This document shows, in pieces, positions 22,440 to 27,749 of a DNA stretch of 47,962 bases. Location of the stretch: NCBI RefSeq assembly GCF_002198735.1, contig NZ_MWLO01000160.1, positions 1-47,962 of the forward strand, in the 5' to 3' direction. Numbering within the stretch: the first letter of the stretch is position 1; the number at the start of each line of letters is the position of its first letter. Under the pieces are notes generated by a model. It was given only the letters and a program-made list of their open reading frames with translations. It was not told where the DNA came from and did not search any database. The position numbers and the translations under genes were made by a program. The stretch is from Ideonella sp. A 288 (GTDB lineage: Bacteria > Pseudomonadota > Gammaproteobacteria > Burkholderiales > Burkholderiaceae_C).

Positions 22440-22592
22440 TCGTCGGGCCGGGCGCGGTGTTGCGTCTGGCGGCGCTGCCCGGGAGCCCGCAGACCGGCCA
22501 GCACGGTGGCAACGGATCAGCCGTCGAATCGCGGCAAGTCGTCACTGAAGTGCGACTGCGCTGACGTCGGTGGAAGGTGGCGGACGCACACA

Positions 22593-24122
22593 ATGCGGGC
22601 CATGGCGATTCGAGGCTTGCGGCGCACCTGGTGCGACGGTGGTGGCGGGCGCGTCACCAGGGTGCTGGCGGCGGCGGCGGTGCTGATGGCGTCGGCCACC
22701 GTGCGCCCACAGGGCCTGTCGCTCGTCCCCTGCAAGCTCGACGGCGTGGAGCACGAGGCCCGGTGCGGCGTCGTGCGGCGGGCGCTGGACCCTTCGCGAC
22801 CCCAAGGGACGGCCATCGACGTGCATGTGGCGGTGCTGCCGGCCGTGGCGCGGCGCAAGGCGTCCGACCCGGTGTTCTTCTTCGCCGGCGGCCCGGGCCA
22901 GAGTGCCATCGACCTGGCCGGCCCGCTGTCCAGGCGCTTCGCGCGACTGTCCAATCGGCGCGACCTGGTCTTCGTCGACCAGCGCGGCACCGGCCGCAGC
23001 GCCCCGCTGAAATGCGCCGACGACGACCTGCGGTCCGTGTTGCGTCCGATGGCCGAGACGGCCGACGAGGCCCGTCGCCTGCAGCGCCTGCGCGAGTGCG
23101 CGGCCATGCTGCAGGCCCTGCCGCACGGCGACCTGCGCCGGTACACCACCGCCATCGCGATGGCCGACGTGGACGCGGTGCGTGCCGCGCTCGGGGTCGA
23201 GCGGCTCAACGCCATCGGCGCGTCCTACGGCACCCGCGCGGTGCTGGAGTACCAGCGGCAGTTTCCGCAACGCGTGCGGCGTGCAGTGCTGGACGGCGTG
23301 GCGCCGGCCGACATGGTGCTGCCGGCCTCGTTCTCGCCGGACAACCAGGCCGCGCTCGAGGCGGTGTTTGCCGCGTGCGAGCAGGAGGACGCGTGCAAGC
23401 GGCGTTATCCGATGCTGCGCCAGCGTTGGCAGGCCCTGCTGGCGCGGCTGCCGATGCCGGCCGTGGTGCCGCACCCGGTGAGCGGCCGCGAGGAGCGCGT
23501 CACCGTGACGCGCGAACTGCTGCTGTCCGCGGTGCGCACGCCGCTGTACGTGCCGCTGCTGGCATCGGCGCTGCCGGCGGCACTGGACGAGGCGGCCGAC
23601 GGGCGCTTCGCGGCGCTGGTCGGCCTGGGCCAGGCCATGAGCGGCAGCGGCCGGGGGGCGGGCCTGGCCACCGGCATGCATTTCTCGGTGGTCTGTGCCG
23701 AGGACGTGCCGCGCCTGGCCGGCGACATCGATCGGCCCGGGGCCGATTTCGGCCAGACATTCGCGGCGCTGTACCGGCAGGTCTGCGAGGCCTGGCCGAA
23801 GGCGTCGGTGCCGCCGGCCTTCTTCCAACCCGTGCCGGCGCTTGCGGCCACGCTGTTGCTGTCGGGCGGCGCCGACCCGGCCACACCGCCGCGGCATGGC
23901 GATCGGGTGGCGACGGCGCTGGGCCCGAAGGCCCGGCACGTGGTGGTGCCGCAGGCCGGCCATGGCGTGCTGGCACTGGGCTGCGTGCGCGACGCGGTGC
24001 AGCGCTTCATCGACGCCGACACCGACGACGCGGCCCTGGCAGTGGATGTGTCGTGCGCGGCGGCGATGCCGCGTCCGCCGGCCTTCATCGGCTGGCCGGC
24101 CCCGGACGAGGCCGCCCGATGA
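22593..24122 (+). CDS. Exported S33-family alpha/beta hydrolase (tripeptidyl aminopeptidase-like)
   Basis: The 509-residue protein has a leader (about 20-38), an oxyanion strand VFFFAGGPGQSAIDLAG near 85-101, DQRGTGRSAPL, a nucleophile Ser in IGASYGTRAV (about 212), an acid in SGGADPATP (about 427) and a base in AGHGVLALGC (about 453). The C-terminal cap with paired Cys matches TAP-like peptidases (PF08386). It may cleave N-terminal peptides or hydrolyse esters in the periplasm. Its stop overlaps the natA-like ATG (ATGA). The start could also be ATG 22602. No strong ribosome-binding site is close to either. Confidence 0.83.
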   Translation: MRAMAIRGLRRTWCDGGGGRVTRVLAAAAVLMASATVRPQGLSLVPCKLDGVEHEARCGVVRRALDPSRPQGTAIDVHVAVLPAVARRKASDPVFFFAGGPGQSAIDLAGPLSRRFARLSNRRDLVFVDQRGTGRSAPLKCADDDLRSVLRPMAETADEARRLQRLRECAAMLQALPHGDLRRYTTAIAMADVDAVRAALGVERLNAIGASYGTRAVLEYQRQFPQRVRRAVLDGVAPADMVLPASFSPDNQAALEAVFAACEQEDACKRRYPMLRQRWQALLARLPMPAVVPHPVSGREERVTVTRELLLSAVRTPLYVPLLASALPAALDEAADGRFAALVGLGQAMSGSGRGAGLATGMHFSVVCAEDVPRLAGDIDRPGADFGQTFAALYRQVCEAWPKASVPPAFFQPVPALAATLLLSGGADPATPPRHGDRVATALGPKARHVVVPQAGHGVLALGCVRDAVQRFIDADTDDAALAVDVSCAAAMPRPPAFIGWPAPDEAAR

Positions 24123-24910
24123 TCGAGATCGACGGTCTGGTCAAGCGCTTCGTGCAGGGCCGTGGCCGCACGGCGCGGGTGGTGGACGCCGTGGCCGGGC
24201 TGAGCCTGCGCGCCGCCGATGGCTGCATCACCGGCCTGCTCGGCCCCAACGGCGCCGGCAAGACGACCACGCTGCGCATGGTGGCGGCGCTGCTGGAGCC
24301 CGATGCCGGGCGCATCACCGTGGACGGCATCGACGTGGCCGCGCGGCCGCGGCAGGCGCTGGCGCGGATGGGCGTGCTGTCGGATGCCCGCGGGCTGTAC
24401 CCGCGGCTGACCGCGCGCGAGAACATCGTCTACTACGGCCGCCTGCAGGGCCTGTCGGCCGAGGCGGCGTCGGCCCGCGCCGACACCCTGGCGCAGATGC
24501 TCGACATGGTGCCCCTGCTCGACCGTCGCACCGAAGGCTTCAGCCAGGGCGAGCGCATGAAGACAGCGCTGGCGCGGGCGCTGGTGCACGACCCCTCGCA
24601 CATCATCCTGGACGAACCGACCAACGGGCTGGACGTGCTGGCCACCCGCTCGCTGCGCGAGGCGCTGCGGCACCTGCGCGACGAGCAGCACAAGTGCATC
24701 GTCTTCTCGACGCACATCATGCAGGAGGTGGAGCGGCTGTGCGACCAGGTGGTCGTCGTCGCGGGGGGCCGCACGGTGGCCTCCGGCACCGTCGGCGAAC
24801 TGCTGGCGCGCACCGGCCACCAGGATTTCGAGGCCTGCTTCGTGCAGCTGGCCTTCGGGGCCGAGGCGGCCGGCGCAGGTGCAGGTGCAGGTGCAGGAGG
24901 GACGGCATGA
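24119..24910 (+). CDS. natA: ABC transporter ATP-binding protein, NatA type
   Basis: The 263-residue ATPase shows Walker A GPNGAGKTT near residues 42-50, FSQGERMK as the ABC signature, Walker B HIILDEPTNGLD and the switch His in FSTHIM. With NatB it forms a sodium-extrusion type exporter in Bacillus; NatA-like calls in proteobacteria are often of unknown substrate. It overlaps the hydrolase stop and the natB start by four bases each, so three products are coupled. The C-terminus is a low-complexity Ala/Gly run from a hexamer repeat at 24875-24898. Confidence 0.85.
   Translation: MIEIDGLVKRFVQGRGRTARVVDAVAGLSLRAADGCITGLLGPNGAGKTTTLRMVAALLEPDAGRITVDGIDVAARPRQALARMGVLSDARGLYPRLTARENIVYYGRLQGLSAEAASARADTLAQMLDMVPLLDRRTEGFSQGERMKTALARALVHDPSHIILDEPTNGLDVLATRSLREALRHLRDEQHKCIVFSTHIMQEVERLCDQVVVVAGGRTVASGTVGELLARTGHQDFEACFVQLAFGAEAAGAGAGAGAGGTA
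24875..24898 (+). repeat. Hexamer tandem repeat at the natA-natB junction
   Basis: GCAGGT occurs three times in tandem followed by GCAGGA, encoding Ala-Gly pairs at the NatA C-terminus. The last unit joins AGGAGG (24895-24900), the ribosome-binding site of the next gene, six bases before its ATG. Copy-number change would alter the NatA tail by two residues per unit without a frameshift. Confidence 0.75.
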
Positions 24911-26070
24911 GCCTGGCCTGGATCGTCTTCGTCAAGGAGCTCGTCGATGCGCTGCGCGACCGCCGCACGCTGATGATGGTGGTGCTGTCCTCGGTGGCGG
25001 TCGGTCCGCTGGTGCTGGTGGCGCTGTCGGTGCTGGTGGCGGGCATCGAGGAGCGGGCCGAGTCGCGCCAGGTGCATGCGGTGGGCATGGAGCATGCGCC
25101 CACGCTGCGCAACTACTTCGAGCGGCAGACCCACATGGTGCTGCCGGCACCGGCCGACTTCCAGCGCCAACTGGTGTCGCGCCAGTTCGGCGATCCGGTG
25201 CTGGTGGTGCCGGCCGATTTCGAGCGCGACCTGGCGGCAGGGCTGGCGCCCATCGTCGAAGTGTTCAGCGCCAGCGCCAACACGCGGGCCCAGGGCGGCG
25301 TGGGCCGTGTGGTGCGGCTGCTGCAGGGGTTCAACCAGGAGCAGGGCACCCTGCGACTGGCGCTGCGGGGTGTGTCACCCACCCTGCTGCAGGCGGTGCA
25401 GGTGGAAGAGCGCGACCTGGCCGATCCGCGCGCGCGCGCCGCCCAGCTGACCGCGATGGTGCCCTTCTTCGTGCTGATGGCCGTGCTGTACGGCGCCTTG
25501 AATGCCGCGCTGGACACCACCGCCGGCGAGCGCGAACGCGGCTCGCTCGAACCCTTGCTGATGAACCCGGCCGCACGCTCTGCATTGGTGTTGGGAAAAT
25601 GGGGTGCTGTGGCGTGCGTGGGCATGCTGATCGCGCTGCTGTCGTGCCTGAGCTTCCTGCCCGCGCAGTGGTTGTTGCGCAGCGAGACGCTGGCGGCGAT
25701 GTTCCAGTTCGGCCTGCGCGAGGCGGCGCTGTTCCTGGCGCTGCTGCTGCCCCTGGCGGCAGCCCTGTCGGGCGTGCTGATGGCCGTGGCGATCCGCTGC
25801 AAGAGCTTCAAGGAAGCCCAGGCAAACAGCACCCTGGTCATCCTGGCGGTGTCGCTGCTGCCGATGGTGACCCTGTTCAACCAGGAGGGCGAAAAGCCCT
25901 GGCACCTGTGGCTGCCTGCCTTGGCCCAGATCACGCTGATGGGTCGGGTGCTGAAGGGCGAGGCCATCGGCACCATGGACTTGCTGGTGCCGCTGGGCGC
26001 GGCGGCGCTGCTGACCCTGGTGTGCGTGGCCTACGTGGCGCGGCAGTTGCGGACGGCGGCCTTGCGGTGA
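24907..26070 (+). CDS. natB: ABC transporter permease, NatB type
   Basis: The 387-residue membrane protein follows the ABC-2 plan: a transmembrane helix near 23-45, a periplasmic domain of about 150 residues, then five hydrophobic segments from about residue 180. The TTAGERERGSLEPLLMNPA segment near 205-222 is the cytoplasmic coupling loop of NatB/ABC-2 permeases. It overlaps natA by four bases (ATGA) and has AGGAGG for its own initiation. What is exported is unknown. The hydrolase upstream could act on the same substrate. Confidence 0.86.
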   Translation: MSLAWIVFVKELVDALRDRRTLMMVVLSSVAVGPLVLVALSVLVAGIEERAESRQVHAVGMEHAPTLRNYFERQTHMVLPAPADFQRQLVSRQFGDPVLVVPADFERDLAAGLAPIVEVFSASANTRAQGGVGRVVRLLQGFNQEQGTLRLALRGVSPTLLQAVQVEERDLADPRARAAQLTAMVPFFVLMAVLYGALNAALDTTAGERERGSLEPLLMNPAARSALVLGKWGAVACVGMLIALLSCLSFLPAQWLLRSETLAAMFQFGLREAALFLALLLPLAAALSGVLMAVAIRCKSFKEAQANSTLVILAVSLLPMVTLFNQEGEKPWHLWLPALAQITLMGRVLKGEAIGTMDLLVPLGAAALLTLVCVAYVARQLRTAALR

Positions 26071-26235: not shown

Positions 26236-26631
26236 TCAGTTCGGTGCCGAGGCCAGCGCTCGCTCGACCTCCGATTGCCAGGGCAGCGCATGCACGATCT
26301 GGTTGAGGTGGCGGGCGGATTCGACCGCCGTCAGGAGTTCGCCTTCGGGGCCCACCAGCCGCAGGTTGGTGATCACCGACAGTGGATCGGCCATGGCGAC
26401 GATGCCCCGTGACAGCTGAACCCAGTCCCAGGCCATCCCGGCTTCGCCTTCGTCGGAGGTGCCGGCCCACACCGTCTGGCCCGTCACGCGGTTGACCTGG
26501 TCGCCCAGGTGCGTGATCTGGGTGCCCATGTGCTGCAGCAGCATGAGAGGTCGGCCCCCAAGCTGCCACAATACTGGAGGCCAGGCGTGCAAGGTCCACG
26601 AGGGGCAATTTTGGTGTGAGGCGATCGCCAT
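26236..26631 (-). CDS. Unknown protein divergent from luxR
   Basis: The 131-residue frame starts at ATG 26631. A TTG upstream at 26673 and an ATG at 26544 are in frame, and none has a clear ribosome-binding site. The product has several Trp residues near the front (CPSWTLHAWPPVLWQLG), a central LGDQVNRVTGQTVWAG and VGPEGELLTAVESARHLNQ near the end. There is no leader or membrane helix, and I do not recognise a family. It is divergent from the LuxR gene, and the lux-box-like site at 26690-26709 lies 59 bases before its start, so it may be under LuxR control. Confidence 0.6.
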   Translation of the reverse strand: MAIASHQNCPSWTLHAWPPVLWQLGGRPLMLLQHMGTQITHLGDQVNRVTGQTVWAGTSDEGEAGMAWDWVQLSRGIVAMADPLSVITNLRLVGPEGELLTAVESARHLNQIVHALPWQSEVERALASAPN

Positions 26632-26689
26632 GGGAGTGTTTCTATGGTTCGAGGAATGCCGAGTGTTCGACAAGATGAGCCGTTGCGAT

Positions 26690-26709
26690 ATCTGTAAACC
26701 TTGTCAGGT
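26690..26709 (+). promoter_or_regulatory. Lux-box-like operator, upstream copy
   Basis: ATCTGTAAACCTTGTCAGGT matches the NNCTG-N10-CAGNN pattern of lux/las/rhl boxes. It lies in the 115-base divergent region, 37 bases before the luxR ATG (26747) and 59 before the leftward gene start. A related sequence occurs at 27490-27507 after luxR. Confidence 0.6.
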
Positions 26710-26746
26710 CATGGCGACGACGGCCTGGATCCGCTGAGCAGTGCCT

Positions 26747-27460
26747 ATGCTGCAAGGCGGTTATTCATCGGTGCTCGACGCACGGAGTCTGGAGGAGTTC
26801 CGGGGCGAGGTCATCCGGTTCGCGCAGGACATCGGCTTCCGCACCGTCGGGGCGTTCGTCCTGGTCGACCAACGCATAGGCAGGTCTGAGTATGTGGCCG
26901 TGCACAACGCGCCGCAGGGCTACGAAGAGGCCATGCACGACCAATCCTGCGCCAAGCGCGACCCGGTGATCCAGCATTGCCTCAAGCAGACCATGCCGAT
27001 CATCTGGGACCAGGCGACCTACACGGCACGCGGCGTCGGTGACCTGTGGGAGGAGCAAGCCCACTTCGGCTACATGACGGGCATCGCCATGGCGCTTCAC
27101 CTGCCCGAGGGCCGGCATTTCGTGTTCGGGGTCGACCGTGACCAGGCGCTTCCGCGCGACCCCGCCGAACTGACCAGGTTGGTGGCGGATGTTCAACTGT
27201 TCGCCGTGTGTGCCCAGGAAGCGGCCGTTCGAGTGCTGACGCCGGCCACCGCAGACGGTGCGGTGCCACGGCTGACGCCTCGCGAGGCCGAAGTGCTGAG
27301 CTGGACCATGGAAGGCAAGACGGCCTGGGAGGTGGGTGCCATCCTGGGCATCACCGAGCGCACCGTGTCGCTGCACGTGGCCAATGCGATGCAGAAGCTC
27401 GGGGCGGCCAACAAGCACCAGGCGGTGCTCAAGGCGCTTCGCCTGGGATTGATCCACTGA
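26747..27460 (+). CDS. LuxR-family autoinducer-binding-type regulator
   Basis: The 237-residue protein has an autoinducer-binding domain (about 10-165) and a LuxR helix-turn-helix (LTPREAEVLSWTMEGKTAWEVGAIL through RTVSLHVANAMQKLGAANKHQA, about 173-220). By hand alignment with TraR, Asp70-Pro71 (RDPV) and Trp85 (PIIWDQ) are kept, but the Trp57 position is Tyr and the Tyr61 position is Met (NAPQGYEEAM). No luxI-type synthase is in the window, so it may be a LuxR solo. ATG 26747 or GTG 26741 is the start; the ribosome-binding site is weak. Downstream come a second lux-like box, a 20-codon ORF and two hairpins. Confidence 0.85.
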   Translation: MLQGGYSSVLDARSLEEFRGEVIRFAQDIGFRTVGAFVLVDQRIGRSEYVAVHNAPQGYEEAMHDQSCAKRDPVIQHCLKQTMPIIWDQATYTARGVGDLWEEQAHFGYMTGIAMALHLPEGRHFVFGVDRDQALPRDPAELTRLVADVQLFAVCAQEAAVRVLTPATADGAVPRLTPREAEVLSWTMEGKTAWEVGAILGITERTVSLHVANAMQKLGAANKHQAVLKALRLGLIH

Positions 27461-27489
27461 CGGGCGGCGCGCGCCAGTTTGTGTTCACC

Positions 27490-27507
27490 CTGTAAGACTT
27501 GACACTA
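27490..27507 (+). promoter_or_regulatory. Lux-box-like operator, downstream copy, overlapping TTGACA
   Basis: CTGTAAGACTTGACACTA shares CTGTAAnnCTTGnCA with the upstream box (12 of 18 bases identical). TTGACA at 27499-27504 is a perfect -35 hexamer within it. I see no convincing -10 at 17 bases. It lies 77 bases before the 20-codon peptide ORF. Confidence 0.45.
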
Positions 27508-27583
27508 CCGTGAAGTGGGACTCGCTGGTCGAATGAGGTTCATGCGCTGCTCATGGCGCTTTGTTCCCAGACCAGGAGACCCC

Positions 27584-27646
27584 CATGCAAGCCATCAAGT
27601 CGCACACCCAGAACCAGACCTGCCTGCCCCGCGTCGGAGGTGGTTG
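27584..27646 (+). CDS. 20-residue peptide ORF after luxR
   Basis: ATG at 27584 follows CAGGAGA at a normal distance (about six bases) and opens a 20-codon frame ending TGA. The peptide begins MQAIKSHTQNQTC and ends PRVGGG: one Cys, basic, no hydrophobic segment. The strong initiation signal and the promoter-like element upstream make translation plausible, but a frame this short can arise by chance. It could be a signalling or modified-peptide precursor, a leader peptide or part of a small RNA. No maturation enzyme is adjacent. Confidence 0.4.
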
Positions 27647-27674
27647 AGCGGCTTTCCGGTCCCATGACGAACAT

Positions 27675-27711
27675 GAGCCCGGAGGCGCCAGCAGGTGGCG
27701 CGTCCGGGCTC
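27675..27711 (+). other. Strong stem-loop after the peptide ORF
   Basis: GAGCCCGGA pairs perfectly with TCCGGGCTC, and inside it GCGCCA pairs with TGGCGC around a GCAGG loop, with a single G-G mismatch between the two helices, for about 15 paired bases. No T-run follows, so a structured RNA is as likely as a terminator. Confidence 0.6.
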
Positions 27712-27718
27712 ACGGGGC

Positions 27719-27749
27719 AAGGGCTGCGATCGAGACGATCGCAGCCCTT
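27719..27749. terminator. Perfect 14-base stem, likely bidirectional terminator
   Basis: AAGGGCTGCGATCG and CGATCGCAGCCCTT pair perfectly around AGA, followed on the plus strand by CGTTCAATT and preceded by the first stem-loop. It lies 22 bases past the end of the leftward DUF2892 gene and after the luxR/peptide unit, so it could stop transcription from both sides. The T-tract is weak. Confidence 0.6.

Follow-up and report, generated by a model that had tools for sequence, protein, structure and literature searches.

A LuxR solo with a neighbouring short peptide gene and a divergent rsaM-like gene in Ideonella sp. A 288 and related Burkholderiales: a candidate peptide-based regulatory system

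A DNA stretch of 47,962 nucleotides from Ideonella sp. A 288 (the window, a 48-kb part of the 7.0-Mb genome G000, contig 69) carries a luxR gene flanked by two lux boxes, with a divergent rsaM-like gene on one side and a 20-codon open reading frame (ORF) on the other. From the comparison of this locus with its relatives, we consider it likely that the LuxR protein senses a ribosomally made hexapeptide encoded next door and that it activates both the peptide gene and rsaM, the latter acting as a brake. Diffusible acyl-homoserine lactones (AHLs) are the signals classically assigned to LuxR receptors, and many LuxR solos are without a known ligand. An earlier note, made from the letters of this DNA, had described a compact regulon with one lux box directed towards a divergent gene, the other towards a short peptide gene, and no luxI, an arrangement that is borne out here.

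Organization of the locus and loci compared

The features of the locus are listed below by their positions in the window.

26236..26631, minus strand: rsaM-like gene, 131 amino acids (aa), start ATG 26631 (the longer ORF of the earlier note started at TTG 26673)
26662..26667, minus strand: -10-like AACACT for rsaM, with TG three bases before
26690..26709 (core 26692-26707), no strand assigned: upstream lux box CTGTAAACCTTGTCAG, 34 bits with a matrix from other genomes
26747..27460, plus strand: luxR solo, 237 aa, with both LuxR domains; predicted peptide receptor and activator
27488..27507 (core 27490-27505), plus strand: downstream lux box CTGTAAGACTTGACAC, overlapping a TTGACA -35 at 27499-27504
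27526..27534, plus strand: extended -10 TGGTCGAAT, 20 bases after the downstream box
27574..27578, plus strand: ribosome-binding site, sequence AGGAG
27585..27647, plus strand: short peptide gene MQAIKSHTQNQTCLPRVGGG, 20 codons; leaderless family member of the LPRV subgroup, without the usual Trp
27674..27712, plus strand: stable hairpin after the peptide gene, z -5.7
27719..27749, plus strand: 14-bp terminator-like hairpin with a weak U tract, -25.5 kcal/mol, z -6.8, between the peptide gene and a convergent YgaP-like gene

The starts of luxR (ATG 26747) and of the divergent gene are probably those given, the alignments of their relatives beginning at these codons. The first locus set consisted of 80 named loci of LuxR relatives and the second of further loci fetched later; alignments of 81 loci or 80 sequences include the window where so stated. 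The sequences of L068 and L179 both stop 140 bases after luxR. Among the matches listed, the nearest named relatives of the LuxR protein belong to the Burkholderiales, including Aquabacterium, Rubrivivax, Ideonella, Leptothrix and Roseateles. LuxR relatives were found in 102 of 399 family genomes (E<=1e-45), a figure that includes copies without a peptide, and LuxR and RsaM matches co-occur in the same 16 of the 21 genus genomes.

Two lux boxes directed towards rsaM and the peptide gene

Both sites proposed as lux boxes from the letters alone were found as described: the upstream one (26690-26709, ATCTGTAAACCTTGTCAGGT) fits NNCTG-N10-CAGNN, and the second (27490-27507) has 12 of 18 bases as in the upstream site, with the TTGACA inside it. 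With a matrix made of 37 distinct upstream boxes, all from other genomes and the window not in training, a scan of the window gave 34 bits for the upstream box and 8.7 bits for the downstream box, the second best site, the third one reaching 3.8 bits. The value of 8.7 bits alone is modest, about 0.45 such sites being expected per window and 35% of random windows reaching it somewhere; it was reached by 6 of 3000 random stretches of 150 bp. The downstream box goes beyond chance because a box is present at the same place, 14-148 bp after the LuxR match, in 79 of the 80 named loci (pattern search), the exception being the truncated L068. In 788 kb from the 80 named loci, 187 sites of at least 8 bits were counted: 92 upstream of luxR at a distance of up to 300 bp, 83 (from 78 loci) no more than 150 bp past the gene, and 12 in other places. 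A site above 15 bits lies upstream of luxR in 79 of 81 loci, a count with some circularity, the matrix having been trained on 66 of the 80 named loci. The conservation of the boxes in relatives, on which the earlier note had staked its proposal, was found for both of them.

When the downstream boxes were aligned (80 sequences, window included), 7 of the 16 positions were identical and 7 more agreed in at least 74 sequences, and an extended -10 of the form TGnnnnAAT was located exactly 20 bases past the box in 75 of the 80, that of the window among them. The box centre lies about 43 bp before a start site placed 7 bases past this -10. In LuxR-type class II promoters the box centre stands at such a distance before the start site, and the downstream promoter, in the window as in the relatives, has this layout of a box just upstream of the -10 at a fixed spacing. 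At the upstream box, a conserved -10-like stretch, comprising positions 20 and 23-30 from the box, is found on the rsaM side, and no conserved -10 comparable to it was found on the luxR side in the aligned loci. The conserved -10s thus point to rsaM and the downstream gene as the most likely targets of the two boxes. Of the earlier suggestion that the upstream box faces both luxR and the divergent gene, the rsaM side is borne out by this stretch; a luxR gene driven by its own product may exist but is not supported.

Upstream of luxR in L038, L054, L060, L062, L078 and L079 there are two lux boxes, spaced 18 bp apart, which may form a double operator for rsaM, and in L028, L031, L033, L039 and L044 a second box-like CTGGTGTCATTGTCAG lies farther out towards rsaM, at a distance of about 100 bp.

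A family of short peptides with a hexapeptide core

The 20-codon ORF that had been noticed after the second box does exist, and relatives carry a counterpart at the same place. An ORF that opens with a start codon (ATG in 75 cases, GTG in 3) and has its own ribosome-binding site lies 82-111 nt past the downstream box in 78 of the 80 named loci; the two others are L083, in which an in-frame core without ATG was read by eye, and L068, whose sequence stops. The core of the family is a hexapeptide, usually xPxxxW, present in one or more copies. In the 128 distinct precursors of both locus sets (duplicates removed), P-x-x-x-W occurs in 118. Several cores were found in 46 precursors, with all copies amino-acid-identical in 42 of these 46, and the codon differences between copies in a precursor amount to 146 synonymous versus 7 nonsynonymous ones. 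Across the loci, 68 different hexapeptides were counted in these precursors. The same core kept inside a precursor together with different cores across species is the pattern that would be expected of a specific signal. Between near precursor pairs, third codon positions change most (54, 49 and 126 changes at positions 1, 2 and 3; 13 non-independent pairs).

Second-set loci missed by the script were read by eye where the LuxR copy had at least 53% identity, and nine of them (L205, L206, L207, L208, L211, L212, L215, L220 and L223) have peptides with a core. A core without ATG was read in L113. In L159 neither box nor core was present in the 330 bases read, a start-like ATG appearing only at the end of the stretch, and in L228 a box and the leader-like beginning of an ORF are present, the core not being found in the stretch read.

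Covariation of the peptide core with the LuxR ligand pocket

To relate cores to receptors, 121 pairs were assembled (79 from the first set and 42 from the second). Twelve pairs without an xPxxxW core were dropped, of which L110 and L214 fell out only through a wrong frame given by the script, and two more were dropped for want of a usable RsaM, which left 107; the nine second-set loci recovered by eye stayed outside these tests. In a first look at 72 loci, the top pairs were core position 1 with LuxR116, core 5 with LuxR71 and core 4 with LuxR65 (LasR T115, A70 and Y64 by alignment), which we take to be ligand-pocket positions. The pocket list was drawn from the docking contacts in 2UV0 given in the table of PMC12061423; its numbers were shifted by one in accordance with the LasR alignment, and Tyr54, Tyr58 and Ser110 were left out as likely misprints.

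Given the non-pocket part of the ligand-binding domain (LBD), the DNA-binding domain (DBD) and RsaM, core distance correlates with pocket distance (r=0.346, n=107), a value attained in 0 of 1000 permutations, which remove shared ancestry only in part. The same partial correlation was 0.303 in the first set (n=70) and 0.307 in the second set alone (n=37), with 0 of 1000 permutations in each case. For all 107 pairs, the corresponding values were -0.065 for the DBD (p=0.92), 0.054 for RsaM (p=0.08) and 0.072 for the non-pocket LBD (p=0.04). A fit of sizes is visible as well, LuxR71 Gly being found with core-5 Thr in 38 of 45 cases and LuxR71 Met, Trp, Tyr or Gln with core-5 Gly in 37 of 37. With another, slightly different pocket list, drawn up after the top covarying pairs were known, 0 of 1000 entropy-matched sets of LBD columns attained the observed value, and a co-change test, with the tree built on non-pocket columns, had pocket positions in 7 of its 8 best pairs (p<=0.005; 628 pairs in all). 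When the paper-derived list was combined with a tree of RsaM and DBD, the co-change signal was weaker: pocket positions made up one of four pairs at p<=0.005 (Fisher p=0.31) and 5 of 18 at p<=0.02 (p=0.016), pocket z-scores being higher (0.65 vs 0.07, Mann-Whitney p=0.0005). The best pairs of this last test were core 3 with 64, 77, 70 and 61, and core 5 with 71, only 77 and 61 being on the list. Taken together, the LuxR ligand pocket appears to have co-evolved with the peptide core in the relatives.

The LuxR receptor and the search for luxI

Both LuxR domains of the window protein score far above their cut-offs (Autoind_bind 71.1 bits, cut-off 23; GerE 68.7 bits, cut-off 23.5). Of the six positions that contact AHLs (W57, Y61, D70, P71, W85 and G113 in TraR numbering), all of which would be kept in an AHL-sensing LuxR, the window protein keeps four, with Tyr at W57 and Met at Y61. 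Across 81 loci, the W57 position is occupied by Tyr in 52, Phe in 26 and Trp in 3; W57 and Y61 are mostly replaced, and D70, P71, W85 and G113 are invariant.

In agreement with the earlier statement that no luxI is present, a PF00765 search found no match in any of the 21 genus genomes, that of the window included, nor in the 14 controls of that search. The search works, since 45 of 397 family genomes passed its cut-off. Among the genomes of the named loci, searched for 50 of the 80, 46 gave no luxI match.

Tandem luxR arrays of 3-5 copies are found at the locus in L201, L227, L209, L198 and L200, with one copy per array preceding a box and a peptide (by script); the extra copies are possibly receptors for peptides of other strains. 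In a second rsaM-luxR subfamily of the same bacterial family (L233-L258, LuxR 41-50% identity), the script found no downstream box or peptide, no by-eye reading being made.

The divergent gene encodes an RsaM-like protein

The earlier note had placed a divergent gene for an unknown protein on one side of the regulon. The gene and its position beside luxR stood, and its product is RsaM-like as judged by profiles: 24 of 30 homologues match PF16245 (E<=0.1, best E 4.6e-6), the window protein itself giving a weak match of 15.6 bits (gathering cut-off 25). Against the PDB, the profile of the RsaM-like protein has 4o2h (BCAM1869, which we take to be an RsaM) as its sole match up to E=10, with E=0.035. 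The divergent rsaM-luxR solo pair corresponds to the published topology type 6a (Venturi et al. 2023, PMC10710839), and the same account describes RsaM as a mostly negative quorum-sensing regulator that binds neither DNA nor AHLs.

Leader and exporter in most relatives

Of the 78 ORFs with a start codon, 62 (in 62 of 80 named loci) encode a double-glycine leader before the core, 7 have Gly-Ala or a comparable variant instead, and 9 are leaderless. The gene of an HlyD adaptor is present downstream in 63 of the 80 and that of a C39-type ABC exporter in 62, four further exporter matches that lie upstream being another ABC gene and left out of this count. Leader and exporter occur together, for example, in Roseateles aquatilis CCUG 48205 (L028), whose core is APKGTW. 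Exporter domains were checked in one locus, on its two downstream genes, and the exporter matches models of bacteriocin-type exporters below their curated cut-offs.

Such a resemblance, together with the invariance of four AHL-pocket positions in 81 loci, would suit a microcin or bacteriocin operon controlled by a LuxR solo whose signal is another molecule, for example the AHLs of neighbours. We regard this as unlikely: the six-residue cores are kept identical inside precursors, forms of 10-20 aa exist without leader or exporter, no immunity gene was recognised (though no search for one was made), and such an operon gives no reason for the covariation of core and pocket. It is very unlikely, in our estimation, that the locus encodes the precursor of a ribosomally synthesized and post-translationally modified peptide (RiPP), of which a modified molecule rather than the plain hexapeptide would be the ligand or effector of LuxR. 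Pro and Trp are conserved in most cores, the cores are repeated as in some RiPPs, and the L052 precursor, one of four scanned, has a weak match to RaxX_RiPP, another exported double-glycine peptide (E=0.0058, 16.9 bits, cut-off 40). The genes that follow the peptide gene are, however, those of HlyD and the C39 exporter in the numbers given above, and no modification enzyme was seen, the two downstream genes of one locus being those annotated. Both readings fit less well than a hexapeptide ligand because they explain the exporter but not the pocket covariation.

The leaderless branch and the copy in the window

Among the ten leaderless named loci (the nine without a leader and L083), none has an HlyD gene, compared with 63 of the 69 other peptide loci; of the six exceptions, L079 is at a contig end and L058 has a degenerate leader. 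This association rests on related loci and not on independent events. Judged by its sequence, the window belongs to this leaderless branch, in which leader and exporter were lost: its 20-aa peptide has no leader, HlyD was not found in its 48 kb, and the combination of a double-glycine leader with a C39 exporter is lacking. The genome has no Peptidase_C39 domain (8 of 14 control genomes were positive). The genus relative L110 encodes just MQVLLPRNAW, of 10 residues. The leaderless precursors of L047 and L088 consist mainly of core repeats (five TPRGG(G/S)W-type and seven GPRGTW copies).

The window peptide ends in LPRVGGG and lacks Trp, and the downstream box of the window is degenerate, with CAC for CAG (1 of 80 sequences; also in the second-set locus L215). 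Along with the missing C39 domains, these features could mean that the copy in the window is decaying and that the system, working in relatives, no longer works in this genome, which we find unlikely. The -10, the ribosome-binding site and the start distance are all kept in the window, and eight other loci have cores of the LPRV or LPRA type (LPRVGGL, LPRVS and LPRVGGW among them), several without Trp. Of the nine loci of this type, window included, all 9 have Leu or Ile at LuxR77 (LasR V76) and 7, again with the window, have Met or Leu at LuxR41 (LasR L40), versus 5 and 0, respectively, of the 112 others, counts which ignore shared ancestry; the branch-mates compared with the window, in contrast, have Val41 and, except L047, Met77. 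Because its LuxR carries the pocket changes common to LPRV/LPRA-type loci, we argue that the window peptide diverged together with its receptor rather than decayed.

Proposed circuit

The peptide is probably the ligand of LuxR, and this is the simplest model because it explains the boxes, the peptide family, the exporter linkage and the pocket covariation together. The LuxR pocket, which binds AHLs in other LuxR proteins, would bind the ribosomally made hexapeptide. Bound to the downstream box, the complex would then switch on the peptide gene through a promoter of class II type, giving positive feedback, and on the upstream box it would activate rsaM, giving negative feedback through RsaM, a known brake on quorum sensing by AHLs. 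For most relatives, the double-glycine precursor would be cut and exported by the HlyD and C39-ABC exporter encoded directly after the peptide gene, and the exported mature form would need to get back into the cell. In the branch of the window, with the shortest precursors of 10-20 residues, export, if any, would follow another route, or the peptide may act inside the cell. The sequences themselves show the boxes, the promoter spacing, the peptide family, the exporter linkage, the selection on the core and, in the relatives, its covariation with the pocket; we infer the binding of the peptide, the direction of regulation, the export and re-import, the part played by RsaM and the validity of the circuit for the window's own copy.

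Several results weigh against this circuit. On the side of covariation, they include the shared ancestry left by the permutations, the other pocket list made with the top pairs in hand, the weaker co-change with the paper-derived list, and the first set alone, in which the core is correlated with RsaM distance too (r=0.130, p=0.006). The window's own pair is outside these tests, which need an xPxxxW core, and its degenerate box, its peptide without Trp and the absence of C39 domains from its genome count in the same direction. A LuxI match, one of them partial, is present in 4 of the 50 genomes of named loci searched. No importer was recognised at the locus, though no systematic search for one was made.

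Wider regulon and surroundings of the locus

The strict box pattern CTGTAANNNYTGWCAG gave 34 sites in 15 genomes, 1-5 in each, and 23 of them are at the locus. Of the 11 sites elsewhere, 10 are without a -10, and no shared output gene was found among them. At the off-locus site of L265, a less strict extended -10 with the usual spacing stands ahead of an ORF resembling a protein kinase, and the site of L269 possibly belongs, as its rsaM-side box, to a locus where luxR forms an array. A looser pattern with one mismatch was uninformative, with 112 sites in the genome of the window versus 115 for the reversed control.

The two very stable hairpins seen after the ORF in the earlier note exist in the window but are not generally conserved, z being below -2 in 19 of 79 loci, and a small RNA was rejected as the conserved product. 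Of the two products then offered, a peptide or a small RNA, the peptide is the one retained by virtue of its conserved family.

By-eye annotation of the stretch at 22506-26070, upstream of rsaM in the window, gives a gene of alpha/beta-hydrolase type and an ABC exporter encoded by two genes, an arrangement kept in synteny in many relatives. These genes might serve peptide processing or export or be bystanders. As an export partner specific to the leaderless branch they were rejected, being syntenic also in many relatives with a leader.

Relation to known systems and significance

In the Rgg/RRNPP quorum sensing of Gram-positive bacteria, a cytoplasmic receptor with TPR repeats responds to a short exported peptide encoded beside it, with positive feedback. 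The adjoining peptide gene is alike in the present system, whereas the receptor is of the LuxR family, not a TPR-repeat protein, and the host is Gram-negative. Secretion of the class II microcin, NHLP and RaxX types combines a double-glycine leader, an HlyD adaptor and a C39-peptidase ABC exporter. Leader and exporter are alike in most relatives, but the cores here are tiny, often repeated hexapeptides and the lux box is that of the adjoining LuxR; the window's branch differs further by having neither leader nor exporter.

The type 6a rsaM-luxR solo pair has the same divergent layout, in genera that include Pelomonas, Kinneretia and Albitalea; lux boxes, a downstream peptide gene and an exporter, all three of them features of the present loci, are unmentioned in the part of that account available (PMC10710839). 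The LuxI/LuxR systems with RsaM of Burkholderia, Acinetobacter and Pseudomonas fuscovaginae, according to the same source (PMC10710839), likewise have a LuxR gene beside that of RsaM, but in the present locus luxI was not found, a peptide gene is present and W57/Y61 are mostly replaced. PipR of Pseudomonas sp. GM79 is a LuxR solo that does not respond to AHLs and responds to protein hydrolysates and, at high concentration, to Ser-His-Ser; it needs a peptide ABC importer, and its signal is plant-derived (PMC4981722). An account of the OryR subgroup of LuxR solos lists an ethanolamine derivative as its ligand (PMC10134790). PipR is a precedent for a peptide-responsive LuxR solo, but no signal-peptide gene of its own is described in the available parts of these sources (PMC4981722, PMC10134790). 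Among the top papers listed in a literature search, with preprints outside its reach and few subscription papers covered, none described a LuxR of these bacteria paired with a peptide gene of its own.

These data suggest an undescribed kind of bacterial communication, in which a LuxR stands beside its own short peptide gene. We think it reasonably likely, with slightly less assurance than for the circuit itself, that the loci form a separate quorum-sensing class of the Burkholderiales, in which hexapeptides would be read directly by co-diversified LuxR pockets as lock-and-key pairs with RsaM as a built-in brake, the branch of the window, without leader and exporter, making an almost bare signal peptide. 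Matched pairs of pocket and core, such as LuxR71 with core position 5, would constitute a natural experiment on ligand specificity, and the idea, if true, is directly testable with synthetic peptides. The locus would also offer a minimal system for studying RsaM, a quorum-sensing regulator of unknown mechanism. If it holds for a large group of LuxR proteins, a Gram-negative peptide language would exist on the LuxR frame, with ligands that may be read from the genome.

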